Source: Halobellus inordinatus
Lineage (GTDB): Archaea > Halobacteriota > Halobacteria > Halobacteriales > Haloferacaceae
DNA length: 64,000 bases
Assembly (NCBI RefSeq): GCF_024464655.1
Contig: NZ_JANHAV010000001.1
Location: 186,001-250,000 of the forward strand
Direction: 5' to 3'
Position numbers and translations under genes: made by a program. The notes beneath the pieces are model-generated. The model was not told the origin of the DNA. It saw nothing but the letters and a program-made list of their open reading frames with translations, and made no database searches. Numbering within the stretch: position 1 is the stretch's first letter; each line of letters starts with the position of its first letter. Positions 4,278 to 10,604 of this stretch are shown piece after piece.

Positions 4278-5015
4278 GTGAGCGTCTTCTCGCTGTTGCG
4301 CGCGCGGACGGCGTCGGACTTCGCCGACTGGTTCCGGCCCGGGGGAGAGTATCTCCTGCGTGTCGCCGACGGAATGGGGTTTCACACTGGCGACCTCTCG
4401 GGCTTCATCGACGAAGCGGAGACGGCGATGCGGGCGAACCGAACCGGCGCGGACGTCGCGCCCGCGGTCAATCGCCTGATCGCCGCGGACCTCTACGCCG
4501 ACGCCGCGTTCGGGCTCCCCTTCTTGGAGTGGACGCCCGTGTGGTACGAACTCTCACTGACTGCGCCGACGGCCTACGCCGACTGGCGACTCAGGCGCGT
4601 CGCCGACCAGTACGCCGCGACGATCGATCACCTCTCGCTGCCGCGGTTCAGCCGCCCCGACGACGTCGTCTCCCGCGGGTCCCCCGCGATCGAATCCGTC
4701 TCGGGCTTCGCCGATCGGTTCGCGTTTGCCGACGCCATCCTGCATCTGGAGTGGTTCGACTACGTCGCGACCGAGTGCGGCATCGGCGTGCCCCCGGAAC
4801 TGATCGCCGAGGCGCGCGATCAGACTGTCGGCTACTACGTCGGTGACCTCGCGATGGAAGACCTCGATCCCACGGTCCGACGACTTCAGTACCTGCTCTT
4901 TACCGACGACGAGTGGGTACGCACTATCGACGAGCGATACGGCCTCGGGAGTTCGCTCTTCACGCTCTGGGAGCGGGTGTGTCGCCGCGAGCGCGAGCGG
5001 TTCAGTGGTGCTTGA
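4278..5015 (+). CDS. Uncharacterised haloarchaeal protein
   Basis: A 245-residue soluble, acidic protein that I do not recognise. The sequence is rich in predicted helix and aromatic residues (WFRPGGEYLL, LEWTPVWYELS, LHLEWFDYVATECG), with no nucleotide-binding loop, zinc site, signal peptide or membrane segment. The GTG start is set by a TATA box about 27 bases upstream, giving a leaderless mRNA; an overlapping GTG two bases earlier is out of frame. Its 3' end lies 11 bases from the end of the minus-strand terpene synthase-like gene, so the two are convergent and do not share an operon. Confidence 0.8.
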   Translation: MSVFSLLRARTASDFADWFRPGGEYLLRVADGMGFHTGDLSGFIDEAETAMRANRTGADVAPAVNRLIAADLYADAAFGLPFLEWTPVWYELSLTAPTAYADWRLRRVADQYAATIDHLSLPRFSRPDDVVSRGSPAIESVSGFADRFAFADAILHLEWFDYVATECGIGVPPELIAEARDQTVGYYVGDLAMEDLDPTVRRLQYLLFTDDEWVRTIDERYGLGSSLFTLWERVCRRERERFSGA

Positions 5016-5026
5016 GAGCAGCGCAG

Positions 5027-6034
5027 TCACTTGAAACCGCGGCTCGCGAGATGATAGCGCAGGACCTCTTTGGTCCCTTCGACGAACGGACCCAGGTCCA
5101 CGGCGTCGATCCGATCGCGGAGGGTTTCGAGCCGTCGATACTGCACGTTCCACTCGTCGAGGAACTCCGATTCGAGGTCGTGGTCGTCGATCCGGTCGAT
5201 GACGCGTGCCGCCGCTTCGGCGTCCGGATCGTCGGGATTCGGGAGATCCTCTGGGTGGACGACTCCGCGTTCGAGCGCGGCGACGACGACTCCGGAACTG
5301 ACGTCGCCTTCTAACACCTCACGCTCCCAGGTGCTGACCCAGTTGCCGATCCGCGCCATTTGCTGGGCGGCGTCGACCGCCGCCCGAAGGTCTGCCGTCG
5401 CCCGGGCGAGGTCGGCCGAGGCGTGCATCAGGTCGATGTCGAGGTAACTGTGCATTCCCATATTGTGCGTCTCGTACCGCCGGAGATCGTGGACTGTCGC
5501 CTGCTCTGGGCGCTCGATGACGAGGGTGCTGTACTCGATCGCTGTGACGATCTGTCGCACGTCGAACCGGAACCGCGGGACGTACTGCTGGAACTTCGGC
5601 CCCCGTTCGAGGCGGGAGACGAGCGTCTCCCACACGCGCGCCGCGAACGCGACGTACTCGTCGTCGACCGCGTCCGAGCGGGCTTCGACACCGACTCCGT
5701 CTCCCCCGTCGAGGCGATCTCCCGCCCGAGCCAGACTGACGATCGCGTCGAACGTCTCGTAGTCGCGGTACTTCTCCAGGAGGTCGTCGAGGATGGTGAC
5801 GAACAACACGAGCATCGTCTTGTTCGTGGCGACGCGCTCGTGGTGAGTTTCGTCGACGAAGGGCATCGTGTTCGCCGGCGCGAGGTGGTGGACCCACTTC
5901 CAGATGAACGCGGGCCGGGCCGCCTCGAAGGACTGATACTCCGAAACGAGGTCGCCGAGCGCCGGCGGTAGTTCGTGATCCGCGATCGACTCGAGGAGCG
6001 CTGCGGCTCTGTCGCCGTCGATCGATGCAACCAC
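5027..6034 (-). CDS. Class I terpene synthase-like protein
   Basis: A 335-residue protein, the usual length of a single-domain bacterial class I terpene synthase. The metal-binding motif reads DDLLE at residues 83-87 (DDxxE), preceded by the hydrophobic helix MLVLFVTIL. The second metal site is N231-WVS-T235-WER-E239, an exact match to the N-x3-(S/T)-x3-E triad of these enzymes. An arginine pair, R185-R186, lies 46 and 45 residues before N231, where the family carries its diphosphate-sensing Arg. Together these suggest a diphosphate-ionising cyclase acting on a prenyl diphosphate. The overall sequence is otherwise unfamiliar to me, so a catalytically drifted relative is possible. The start is GTG at 6034, as no ATG is available upstream in frame. 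It is monocistronic, with no prenyltransferase or P450 next to it. Confidence 0.6.
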   Translation of the reverse strand: MVASIDGDRAAALLESIADHELPPALGDLVSEYQSFEAARPAFIWKWVHHLAPANTMPFVDETHHERVATNKTMLVLFVTILDDLLEKYRDYETFDAIVSLARAGDRLDGGDGVGVEARSDAVDDEYVAFAARVWETLVSRLERGPKFQQYVPRFRFDVRQIVTAIEYSTLVIERPEQATVHDLRRYETHNMGMHSYLDIDLMHASADLARATADLRAAVDAAQQMARIGNWVSTWEREVLEGDVSSGVVVAALERGVVHPEDLPNPDDPDAEAAARVIDRIDDHDLESEFLDEWNVQYRRLETLRDRIDAVDLGPFVEGTKEVLRYHLASRGFK

Positions 6035-6237: not shown

Positions 6238-8601
6238 ATGACTTCGGCCGCGCAACGGGACGCCACAGTCCCTGGCGCGCCGGTCGTTCCGGCGCCAGAA
6301 CCACCGGACAGCACCGACGCGTGGTACGCACCGACAGTTCGCGCACAGTACGAGATCACGCCCGGCGTCGTCACGACGATCCGCGACGGCCCCGACGGTG
6401 TCGGCTTCTCGTATCAGATTCGAGAGCCGGCCCTTGGAGCCGACTCCGAACGCGCGCTCGTGTCAGTGCTAGATTACTTTTCGGGCGTGGACGTCCGCCG
6501 GCCGCTCACTCGTCAGGGAACTGCCGAGCGAGCGGCCGCGGGGTTGCCGCCGAAGTACCGGCGCGTCCTCGATCGGCTTCTCGACGTCGCACCCGCCATC
6601 CGCCGCCGCCTCGACTACTATGCGACCTGCGAATTGCGCCTGCTTGGCCCCGTGACGCCGATAGCGCTCGACGACCGCGTCGACGTCGTCGACGTCGAAG
6701 GCGAGACCGACGGTGCGCTCGTCGTTCACACCGACAACTACGCACCCGCGGTCACGCCGTTCCGCGCGGACGCCGAGTTCGCGACGCGGGTCGCCGGCGA
6801 GCGACTCCGCCACTACACCGTCTCCTTTGCGGGGTTCGACATCGACGTCGTCGTCCACCGGGACCGGCTCCTCGGTAGCGACCGCTTCGAGGCGAAGTAC
6901 GCGGTGCTCGAACCCGACCTCCTCCCGGGTGACGAAGCACTCGTCGCCGAGTGCAAAGAGCGCATCTGGGAAGCCAACGTCGACGAAGTCGTCGAAGATC
7001 GGACGGCATTCATTCGCGACCGCGCCAGACAGTTCCTCTCGCGCCGCCTCACCGCGCGCAACACCCGCGCGTGGCTCGAAGCGACGCGGTACCGCGCCCG
7101 CAACGCGCTGGCAGCGTACGGGCTCGGCGTGCCGCCGGTCGACCGCCGGTACGCCCAGGACCGCCTCGACGACCTTGTCTACTACGTCCTCCGCGACTAC
7201 GTCGGCGAGGGCGTCCTCACGGTCCCGATCCGCGACCCGCATCTCGAAGACGTCGAAGCCAATCGGGTCGGCGAGCGCGTGAAGGTCGTTCCGCGGGCTG
7301 ACGTCGTCCGAGCGGGCGAACGCGTCCCCACGAACCTCGCCTTCGAGGACGAGACTAGCTTCGTCAACGTCGTCACCCAACTGGCGGCGGCCGACGGCGT
7401 TGAACTCAGCGCGAGCCAGCCCTCCGCGAAGGTGAACCTCCGCCCCGAGGGAGTCGCACCCGACGCCACCGGTCACGGCGAGACCATCCGGTGTGCCGTC
7501 GCGCTCCCGGTCATCTCCGAAGACGGACCGCACGTCTCGATCCGCAAACAGGCGTCGTCGCCGCTGACGCCGATCGACCTCGTCGGCTTCGGGTCGATTC
7601 CGACGGAGCTGGTGACGCTGCTTTGGCTCCTGTATGAACACCACCGCGTCGTCCTCTTTTCGGGACCGACCGGGGCCGGCAAGACGACGCTGATGAACGC
7701 CCATATGCCCTTCATTCCGTACGACCACCGCCCGATCAGCATCGACGAGGGGTCTCGCGAGGTGTATCTCCCCCACGAGACCGGCGTGTCGCTGACGACG
7801 CGCGACCACGAGAACGAGTACAAGCGCGTCTCGATGGCGGATCTGATGACCGAAGCGAACTATCTGAACCCCGACGTGGAAGTCATCGCCGAGGTCAACA
7901 CCCCGGAGTCGTTCGAAACCTTCGCCGAAGTGCTGAACACCGGCCACGGCGTCGTCGGCACCACACACGCCGAAGACATCGAGACGCTGGTGAACCGCGT
8001 CGTCGAGCAGGGACTGCCCGTGTATCTCCTGCGCGAACTCGACTTGGTCGTCTTCCCCCGCCGCGTCGACGGCGAGCGGTACGTCGGCTCGGTCGTCGAA
8101 CTCCTTTCGGAATCCGAGTACGAGGAACTGCCCGCGTCCGCGCGGACGGGCGTCGTCGAGAAGGACGGGACGAACCTCTACTACAACACGATCCTCTGGC
8201 GGGAGACCGACGGGTCGTTCGCGATGGCCTACGATCATCCGTCGCTCGGCGGCGACAATGCCGCTACCGCGGGCGAGACGCACCGCCGCGCGCTCCGCGT
8301 GTTCCACCGCATCGCCGACGCGACCGACCAGGACGTCGAGACGATCGAACGCGAGTTCCGTCGGAAGCGCGGCTACGTCGAGTATCTCCTCCAGGAGGAC
8401 GTGACCGACGTCGACCGGCTGTTCGGGTTCCTCTCGGATCTCCGGACTGACGAGGCCGCGACCGTCGAGCGAGTTCGGCGGCAGCGTGCACACCAGACTG
8501 CCGAGCCCGATACCGAGTCGTCGCCGTCCGAGCGCGAGACTGGAACCGCAGACGACGCTGCGGTGCGGACCCGCGATCGGCCTGGAGGACGGAAGCCGTG
8601 A
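6238..8601 (+). CDS. pilB: Type IV pilus assembly ATPase (PilB/GspE family)
   Basis: A 787-residue secretion ATPase of the archaeal PilB/GspE-E2 type that powers pilin polymerisation at the membrane. The N-terminal 270 residues are a divergent archaeal extension. The catalytic core carries the Walker A loop GPTGAGKTT (about residues 476-484), the Asp box ISIDEGSREV, the His box VGTTHAEDIETL, and the linker that precedes them. The tail of about 40 residues is acidic and disordered. It overlaps pilC by four bases (GTGA) and heads a seven-gene operon. In haloarchaea several paralogous pilB-pilC pairs exist, and the sequence alone does not tell me which numbered set this is. It is not the archaellum ATPase FlaI, because no flaH or flaJ accompanies it. 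Confidence 0.93.
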   Translation: MTSAAQRDATVPGAPVVPAPEPPDSTDAWYAPTVRAQYEITPGVVTTIRDGPDGVGFSYQIREPALGADSERALVSVLDYFSGVDVRRPLTRQGTAERAAAGLPPKYRRVLDRLLDVAPAIRRRLDYYATCELRLLGPVTPIALDDRVDVVDVEGETDGALVVHTDNYAPAVTPFRADAEFATRVAGERLRHYTVSFAGFDIDVVVHRDRLLGSDRFEAKYAVLEPDLLPGDEALVAECKERIWEANVDEVVEDRTAFIRDRARQFLSRRLTARNTRAWLEATRYRARNALAAYGLGVPPVDRRYAQDRLDDLVYYVLRDYVGEGVLTVPIRDPHLEDVEANRVGERVKVVPRADVVRAGERVPTNLAFEDETSFVNVVTQLAAADGVELSASQPSAKVNLRPEGVAPDATGHGETIRCAVALPVISEDGPHVSIRKQASSPLTPIDLVGFGSIPTELVTLLWLLYEHHRVVLFSGPTGAGKTTLMNAHMPFIPYDHRPISIDEGSREVYLPHETGVSLTTRDHENEYKRVSMADLMTEANYLNPDVEVIAEVNTPESFETFAEVLNTGHGVVGTTHAEDIETLVNRVVEQGLPVYLLRELDLVVFPRRVDGERYVGSVVELLSESEYEELPASARTGVVEKDGTNLYYNTILWRETDGSFAMAYDHPSLGGDNAATAGETHRRALRVFHRIADATDQDVETIEREFRRKRGYVEYLLQEDVTDVDRLFGFLSDLRTDEAATVERVRRQRAHQTAEPDTESSPSERETGTADDAAVRTRDRPGGRKP

Positions 8602-10604
8602 GCGGGGGCGACGCCGAGCAGGGCTCGAATCTGGGACCGTCGTCACCGTCTGATCCGACACAGCGTTCGTATTCGGCTCGACGACGCTCGAATCACGCAA
8701 CGCGCTCGCTCGGGGCGTTCGACCGCGCGGCGTACGCGCTGTTCGCCAGCCGAGCGGATTCACGCCGCCACGAGCGCGACCGGCGCGCTTACCGCGGAAC
8801 CAACCTGACCGTGGCGTTCGATCTGTACCTCGCTCGCGTCTACGCGTTCTCGTGGCTTCTGGCGGTGCTCGCCGGTGGGGCTCTCGTCGCCATCGGACTC
8901 GTGCTCCCACCAACGATGATCGAATCGGCCGCGGCTGGCCTCCTCGACCGACTCGCCGGCGTCGGTACCGGTGAAATCGGTGGCTCCACCGCCGACGCCC
9001 TCGATATCTCCCGACGGAACGCGACAGCACTGGCCGGGCTCGTCGGCGTTCTCGCAGCCGCGGGTGTCCACTGGAGCGTCGTCTACGCCGGCGGCCGGTA
9101 CCTCCGCTGGCTGACCGCCGCGCGGCGATCGAACATCGGGCGCACGCTTCCGAGTGCGGTTCGCTACCTGAACGTCCTCGCGTCTGGGAGCGACGGCCGC
9201 CGCGCGATGCTCCGGCGCGTCGCCGACACCGACGCCTACGGGGAGACGGCAGTCGCGCTCCGAAAGGCGCTCAACACCGCCGCGATGACGGGGAACGTCG
9301 ACGAGGGATTGCGGCGAGTCGCCCGCGACACGCCGGCACAGGACACGCTCGCGCCCTTCTTGCTGAAGTTCCGCGAGCACGCCGAGCAGGGCTCGGACGC
9401 GCTCCGGGAGTACCTCGCGATGGAGAGCCGGATGCTGCGGCACCAGCAGGACCGGGATCGGCGTCGCGCGCAGGGATTTCTCGAACTGCTCGCGGAACTG
9501 TTCGTCGTGTTGCTCGTCCTCCCGGCGCTCCTCGTCATCGTCCTCACGGTGATGAGCATCGTCTCGCCCGAACTCTCGGCACCGGTTGAGACGCCGCTCG
9601 GTCCCGTCACGCTCCGTGCGCTCGCCGTCTACGGCAGCGCGGCGTTCATTCTCGTAGTCGGCCTCGGGACTGCGGGGCTCGTCGCCCGGCTCCGGCCGCC
9701 GGATCAGCACGTCACCTACCATCGACCCGCGAGCACGGTCGGTACACTCCGCACGGCGACGACGAACCCCGCGAGCGCGAGCGTCGCGTTCGCGCCGATC
9801 GGCGTCGCCGCGCTCGTCGCGTCTGTCCTCCTCGGCGTCGACGTCGTGATCTCGCTTCTGGTCGGCTACGTCGGCTACGCGATTCCTGTCGGCCTCGTCG
9901 CCGTCCGCCGTGCCCGACTCGACGACGCGAAGGACCACGAACTCAAAGACTTCGTGCACGCCGTCTCCGGCCACGTCAACCTCGGGCGGCCCTTCTCCGC
10001 CGCGGTCGAACACGTCGCCCGCGACGTCGACCTCGGGCCGCTGAACGGTGACGTCGCCGATCTCTCGATGAATCTGCACCTCACAACGCCGACGGCGGAC
10101 GCGGAGACCGACCTGCGGACGGCGGCGCTCGATCGGTTCGTCGACCGCGTCGGCACGCCGATGGCCGAGCAGACGGTCGGCCTCGTGATCGGCGCGCTCG
10201 ACGCCGGCAGCGACACGGGCGTCGTCTTCGAGACGCTCCAGAGCGAAGTGGGCCGCCTCTATCACGAGAAACGCGCGCTCAGATCGGGGATGCTCGTCTA
10301 CGTCGCCGTCGGCTGGACGACTGCGCTTTTAGTCGTCGGGATCAGCGTCGCGACGAGCGCCAACGTCTTCGCCGGGTTCGACCGGCTATCGACGATGTCG
10401 GAGCTTTCGGGCGTCGCGGTCGATCCCGGCGCGGTCGACCTCGCGCGGGATCAGTACCGCGTCTACGTGACCACCCAGGCGACGATGCTCGCCGCCGGGT
10501 GGTTCGCCGGCGTCGCCAGTCGCGGGCAGTACGAGGCGCTCTTGCACTCCGGAAGTCTGGTCGCAGTCTGTCATATCGTATTTGCGGGAATGGGGTTGGT
10601 ATGA
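8598..10604 (+). CDS. pilC: Type IV pilus membrane platform protein (PilC/TadC, T2SSF domains)
   Basis: A 668-residue polytopic membrane protein that partners PilB and feeds pilins from the membrane into the growing filament. After a 70-residue charged cytoplasmic start, hydrophobic segments lie at about residues 82-105, 143-165, 292-320, 340-362, 395-436, 565-588, 625-640 and 653-668. The two T2SSF-type cytoplasmic halves are visible as RALRKALNTA/GNVDEGLRRVA and LVIGALDAGSDTGVVFETL. The duplicated arrangement is typical of archaeal PilC. It starts at GTG 8598, overlapping the pilB stop, with GGAGG about 9 bases upstream; its own stop overlaps the first prepilin-like gene (ATGA). Confidence 0.92.
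   Translation: MSGGDAEQGSNLGPSSPSDPTQRSYSARRRSNHATRSLGAFDRAAYALFASRADSRRHERDRRAYRGTNLTVAFDLYLARVYAFSWLLAVLAGGALVAIGLVLPPTMIESAAAGLLDRLAGVGTGEIGGSTADALDISRRNATALAGLVGVLAAAGVHWSVVYAGGRYLRWLTAARRSNIGRTLPSAVRYLNVLASGSDGRRAMLRRVADTDAYGETAVALRKALNTAAMTGNVDEGLRRVARDTPAQDTLAPFLLKFREHAEQGSDALREYLAMESRMLRHQQDRDRRRAQGFLELLAELFVVLLVLPALLVIVLTVMSIVSPELSAPVETPLGPVTLRALAVYGSAAFILVVGLGTAGLVARLRPPDQHVTYHRPASTVGTLRTATTNPASASVAFAPIGVAALVASVLLGVDVVISLLVGYVGYAIPVGLVAVRRARLDDAKDHELKDFVHAVSGHVNLGRPFSAAVEHVARDVDLGPLNGDVADLSMNLHLTTPTADAETDLRTAALDRFVDRVGTPMAEQTVGLVIGALDAGSDTGVVFETLQSEVGRLYHEKRALRSGMLVYVAVGWTTALLVVGISVATSANVFAGFDRLSTMSELSGVAVDPGAVDLARDQYRVYVTTQATMLAAGWFAGVASRGQYEALLHSGSLVAVCHIVFAGMGLV

Follow-up and report, generated by a model that had tools for sequence, protein, structure and literature searches.

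The window, i.e. the whole stretch of 64,000 nucleotides that was analysed, stems from a genome of 3.41 Mb and 99.99% completeness. Near its beginning it contains an open reading frame on the minus strand, which starts with GTG at position 6034, ends with the stop codon at 5027-5029 and encodes 335 amino acids (Table 1). The sequence-only reading, which had taken this gene for a class I terpene synthase with the full motif set of such enzymes, gave its limits and its length correctly and left the strand unstated. The nearest named relatives of the protein are found in Halobellus species (68% to H. rarus), and the Halobellus orthologues are, judging from substitution patterns, under purifying selection (omega 0.24-0.48). 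Only a pilus-type ATPase and a protein of 245 residues adjoin the gene, i.e. neither tailoring nor regulatory genes are located beside it in the window. The ATPase is the same neighbour in two other Halobellus loci among those read, and the 245-residue protein shares about 90% identity with copies in two other Halobellus loci; both are thought to lie outside the synthase pathway. Two polyprenyl synthase genes are present elsewhere in the same genome.

Table 1. Coordinates of the synthase gene, its candidate functional residues, its neighbours and selected genes of relatives (positions preceded by an L number refer to loci of relatives).
Feature	Position	Strand	Remarks
Class I terpene synthase CDS (predicted)	5027..6034	-	GTG start; 335 aa; Pfam PF19086; AF2; VIA Z 21.5 to Sat1646
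245-aa convergent neighbour	4278..5015	+	Without Pfam or NCBIfam match
Type II/IV secretion or archaeal pilus ATPase	6238..8601	+	Divergent neighbour; Pfam T2SSE
R40	5915..5917	-	Invariant (82/82); in conserved R-x-x-F-x-W-x-W segment
DDLLE, residues 83-87, first metal-binding motif	5774..5788	-	C-terminal end of helix 62-87
R185-R186, proposed diphosphate sensor	5477..5482	-	Poorly conserved
R217	5384..5386	-	Invariant (82/82); in helix 213-241
R228	5351..5353	-	Invariant (82/82); three residues before N231
N231-x3-T235-x3-E239, NSE/DTE-type triad, second metal-binding motif	5318..5344	-	Within helix 213-241
K335, C-terminal Lys	5030..5032	-	K in 61/82, where an RY pair is usual
REC-HalX-synthase ORF, 505 aa	L053:6763-8280	+	No stop between domains
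Possible second REC-synthase fusion	L016:3-1268	+	Contig edge, incomplete
FAD monooxygenase	L053:9167-10516; L054:4193-5542; L153:3822-5192	-; -; +	Near synthase in three of three sister-clade loci read
Methanosarcina-like homologue	L133:6928-7887	-	Missed by Pfam
PAS-PAS-HisKA_2 kinase	L133:8139-9683	-	Directly upstream of homologue; same pair in three related loci

That a haloarchaeon encodes a class I terpene synthase is supported by a family profile, by the predicted fold and by the conservation of the metal ligands. Pfam PF19086 (Terpene_syn_C_2) matches residues 76-258, which cover both metal motifs, with 29.3 bits (E 8.8e-7) and thus exceeds its gathering cut-off of 23.7 bits. The score is weak, however, and the profile reaches only part of the family: it matches 65 of 82 relatives at E 0.1 or better and misses the remaining 17 even at E 0.1. 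Searches with NCBIfam gave no real match, PF00348 (isoprenyl diphosphate synthase) did not match the query at E 1, and a single-sequence phmmer search of the PDB yielded nothing but PknA kinases at E ~1, which we regard as noise, and thus no terpene synthase. An AlphaFold2 model calculated from the 82-member alignment is all-helical (pLDDT 94.6, pTM 0.92). With this model Foldseek ranks T-muurolol synthase on top (E 2.8e-4), with farnesyl diphosphate synthases lower in the list, and in VIA rows 1-42 are all class I terpene synthases, headed by Sat1646 (Z 21.5, 267 residues, 4.2 A), T-muurolol synthase (Z 21.3, 3.0 A) and selinadiene synthase (Z 21.1, 3.0 A) and including bornyl diphosphate synthase, isoprene synthase and others at Z ~21. 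All this is found at an identity of only ~10-17% to solved terpene synthases. Structure prediction followed by Foldseek and a search with a terpene synthase profile, two of the checks that had been proposed for the assignment, came out in its favour.

The two metal-binding motifs are located at the residues given by the sequence-only reading, and their metal ligands are conserved across an alignment of 82 archaeal relatives, most of which have less than 40% identity to the query. D84, N231 and E239 are each present in 82/82 members, the position of D83 is occupied by D in 78 and by N in 4, that of E87 by E in 71 and by D in 11, and that of T235 by T in 80 and by S in 2. The residues that never vary are R40, W47, D84, D201, R217, R228, N231, W232, W236, R238, E239, D244 and D313. 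According to the helix limits of the AlphaFold2 model and the fold match, both motifs occupy their usual places in the class I fold, the end of helix D and helix H, respectively, which suggests indirectly that they would face a common cavity. The same spaced motif pair arises in 35 of 20,000 shuffles of the protein and occurs in 4 other called genes of at least 250 residues among ~525 in the window and the loci of relatives; a fifth match is a tandem copy of the synthase family and was counted apart. Motif pair and conservation together are, at the level of sequence, more than chance.

The claim of a full motif set turned out to be too strong: the metal-binding motifs stand, but the family has not conserved the Arg pair, and an RY pair is not seen at the C-terminus. 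In class I terpene synthases a sensor Arg ~46 residues upstream of the NSE Asn is common, as is a C-terminal RY pair, although neither is universal. R185 and R186 precede N231 by 46 and 45 residues, respectively. Arg is found at these positions in only 10/82 and 37/82 relatives, and we therefore reject the pair as diphosphate sensor. A conserved RY pair is absent from the 82-member alignment; the C-terminus of the family instead reads G-x-K (G333 in 73/82, K335 in 61/82). Thus, as far as conservation tells, the class I site has kept its metal-binding half, and its diphosphate-sensing half departs from textbook cases. The role of the sensor Arg or the RY pair may be taken by R228, a candidate contact of the diphosphate, or else by R238, R40 or the C-terminal Lys.

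Sat1646, a bacterial class I pimarane-type diterpene synthase (PDB 7e4n/7e4o), comes from a different context and has only ~15% identity to the query, but it is both the top VIA match and the best PDB match of the family profile (E 0.05). Its segment NDLASYERD (N-D-x-x-S-Y-x-R-D) aligns with N-W-x-x-T-W-x-R-E of the family, gapless through the region, and it also lacks Arg at the positions aligned to R185/R186. T-muurolol synthase from Roseiflexus (9hqd) and selinadiene synthase (4okm) share the fold at 12-14% identity; selinadiene synthase possesses the sensor Arg and the RY pair, whereas the present family has no conserved counterparts.

Terpene cyclases had been described as rarely reported from haloarchaea. 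The gene is no rarity there: when the whole class was searched, relatives turned up in 121 of 391 Halobacteria genomes and in 39 of 86 genera. The 82-member profile also matches archaea outside the Halobacteria, namely one Methanosarcina-like genome (G696), four more genomes of its genus and one neighbouring genus, and further a Methanohalobium-like genus, one other methanogen-like genus and fragments in a Geoglobus MAG; the identification of these relatives as methanogens is our own reading. The Methanosarcina-like homologue has at most 26% identity to members outside its own group and is not detected by PF19086. Nevertheless, it retains DDxxD and N-x3-T-x3-E and also folds like a terpene synthase, its structural match to Sat1646 extending over 257 residues (Z 23.7, 2.6 A). 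Some of the Geoglobus fragments (L023, L145) carry in-frame stops and possibly represent decaying copies or assembly errors. One locus (L078) harbours two synthase genes in tandem (7326-8387 and 8689-9708, plus strand). A Halorubrum-like synthase (L152:5971-6984, plus strand) is present in Halobellus limi, where it resides on a plasmid of 398 kb and is adjoined by a Bat regulator, a methyltransferase and glycan genes. A squalene-oxidase-repeat protein near this copy came into question as class II partner, but its surroundings consist of glycan genes (sulfatase, AglF) and no class II motif was noticed, so that this idea was dropped.

Archaeal terpene synthases, which may or may not belong to the present family, have reportedly been described already in a preprint by Samusevich et al. 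A passage of PMC12797696 cites Samusevich et al. (bioRxiv 10.1101/2024.01.29.577750) for archaeal terpenoid biosynthesis, and a passage of PMC13235557 mentions the expression in yeast of terpene synthases from archaea. The "terpene" clusters predicted by antiSMASH in Halomicroarcula (PMC8600319) have no demonstrated tie to the present family. Among the papers searched we found no primary one on archaeal or haloarchaeal terpene synthases.

In relatives the synthase appears to be tied to environmental sensing. In a large clade it is adjoined by a Bat-type PAS-GAF-BAT-HTH_10 regulator and a HalOD1 protein, and in four Methanosarcina-like loci a PAS histidine kinase is located directly upstream on the same strand, its PAS_3 and HisKA_2 domains being confirmed by Pfam in three of them. 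Moreover, the next gene in Halorussus is an HTH regulator that overlaps the synthase by 4 bases, and the same overlap is found with a FIST-domain protein in an archaeal MAG (L018). Among the genes adjacent to the synthase in 44 loci PAS_9 occurs in 13/87, BAT in 7/87 and HTH_10 in 7/87, as compared to none or at most 1/79 with PAS five places away; the corresponding Fisher p values (0.0002 to 0.001) are only a guide, as related loci are not independent, and the Bat link derives mostly from one clade.

In the sister clade of the window's gene, the synthase of one genome (G075, locus L053) forms the C-terminal part of a single ORF, the N-terminal part of which consists of a receiver domain (PF00072, 8.3e-17) and HalX (PF08663). 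This is the only complete fusion found. A second one is probable at a contig edge, where the end of a receiver-like domain (YLLKPVSRTTL..., E 5e-4 in a two-sequence comparison) is in frame with the synthase. Long N-terminal open frames in G003, G012, G045, G223, G278, G350, G377 and others were not called fusions because they show no REC similarity and resemble untranslated high-GC frames. The FAD monooxygenases of the sister-clade loci, those of L054 and L153 being 56-58% identical to that of L053, have the epoxidases MonCI (E ~1e-54) and LasC/Lsd18 (E ~1e-51) as closest solved relatives; a further homologue is found in L099. L053 and L054 also encode a REC-PAS-histidine kinase, and L053 an alpha/beta hydrolase. 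By gene content the sister-clade locus resembles a small cluster for a natural product that is controlled by a two-component system. A search of the window's genome for a homologue of the epoxidase, weak in that it had no positive control, found none.

Based on the family profile, the modelled fold and the metal ligands, and further on the fold of the Methanosarcina-like homologue, the purifying selection in Halobellus and the epoxidase of the sister clade, we consider it highly likely that the gene product is a class I terpene synthase dependent on metal ions. Against this reading stand the low identity to solved terpene synthases, the want of a conserved sensor Arg or RY pair, and a locus with neither tailoring nor regulatory neighbours in a genome where no homologue of that epoxidase turned up. 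In the proposed reaction Mg2+ ions, coordinated by DDLLE and N231/T235/E239, would bind the diphosphate group of the substrate and aid its departure; this prenyl diphosphate is probably GGPP, from which archaea build their lipids, with FPP as the alternative. The allyl cation left behind would then undergo cyclisation or quenching within the helical pocket, yielding a terpene hydrocarbon or alcohol. From Mg2+ binding to the product all these steps are what we infer for an enzyme of this kind.

Fold and metal motifs do not tell a cyclase from a prenyltransferase of the same fold or from a synthase of linear products. DabA is such a prenyltransferase, and some cyclases transfer prenyl groups at high pH. 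That the prenyl group is passed to a non-terpene acceptor rather than cyclised would agree with the match to DabA (6vkz; same fold, VIA Z 20.2), with the atypical diphosphate-sensing residues of the family and with the switching from cyclase to prenyltransferase documented for AaTPS and FgGS in a passage of PMC7414894. The higher VIA Z values nevertheless belong, though closely, to terpene synthases, both metal motifs are retained, and no acceptor-forming gene recurs in the neighbourhood, where the recurring tailoring function is the epoxidase, with the hydrolase in one locus, so that we regard this activity as unlikely. An isoprenyl diphosphate synthase or a relative of squalene/phytoene synthases would share the superfamily fold, in line with the farnesyl diphosphate synthases in the Foldseek list, but is highly improbable: the second motif is N-x3-T-x3-E and not a second DDxxD or DxxxD, Terpene_syn_C_2 is the sole Pfam match of the query, and true polyprenyl synthases are encoded elsewhere in the genome.

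The REC-HalX fusion, the probable second fusion, the enrichment of PAS next to the synthase (13/87 versus at most 1/79) and the kinase upstream of the Methanosarcina-like homologues would also suit a sensor or signalling domain that binds prenyl diphosphates and has kept the fold for a mainly regulatory role. Yet metal ligands that vary little or not at all across 82 divergent members are expected of a catalyst rather than of a binder, the MonCI-like epoxidase shares its cluster with the REC fusion, and the Halobellus copies are unlinked to sensors, which leaves a regulatory domain with little probability, below that of the prenyltransferase. If the protein is a catalyst, as we favour, the link to sensing suggests that terpenoid production is controlled by signals in the relatives. 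This link is not directly transferable to the window's gene, which stands alone; signal-linked terpenoid output is plausible for parts of the family. As a tentative and rather doubtful extension, PAS/GAF/Bat proteins, kinases or a fused REC-HalX module might switch the production of a diffusible or membrane terpenoid in archaea, the product maybe being itself a signal, and a two-component response regulator would then have a terpene synthase as its catalytic output domain.

The family is unnamed in the public records checked, and six plasmid copies that were inspected are all annotated as "hypothetical protein". If active, it would be a terpenoid-making family shared by some methanogens and about one third of the haloarchaeal species genomes sampled, and one that manages without the usual conserved diphosphate-sensing residues. 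Moreover, it would include a natural case of a response-regulator receiver domain joined to a terpene synthase, and the terpenoid chemistry of archaea could be tested directly in organisms that are rich in prenyl diphosphates.
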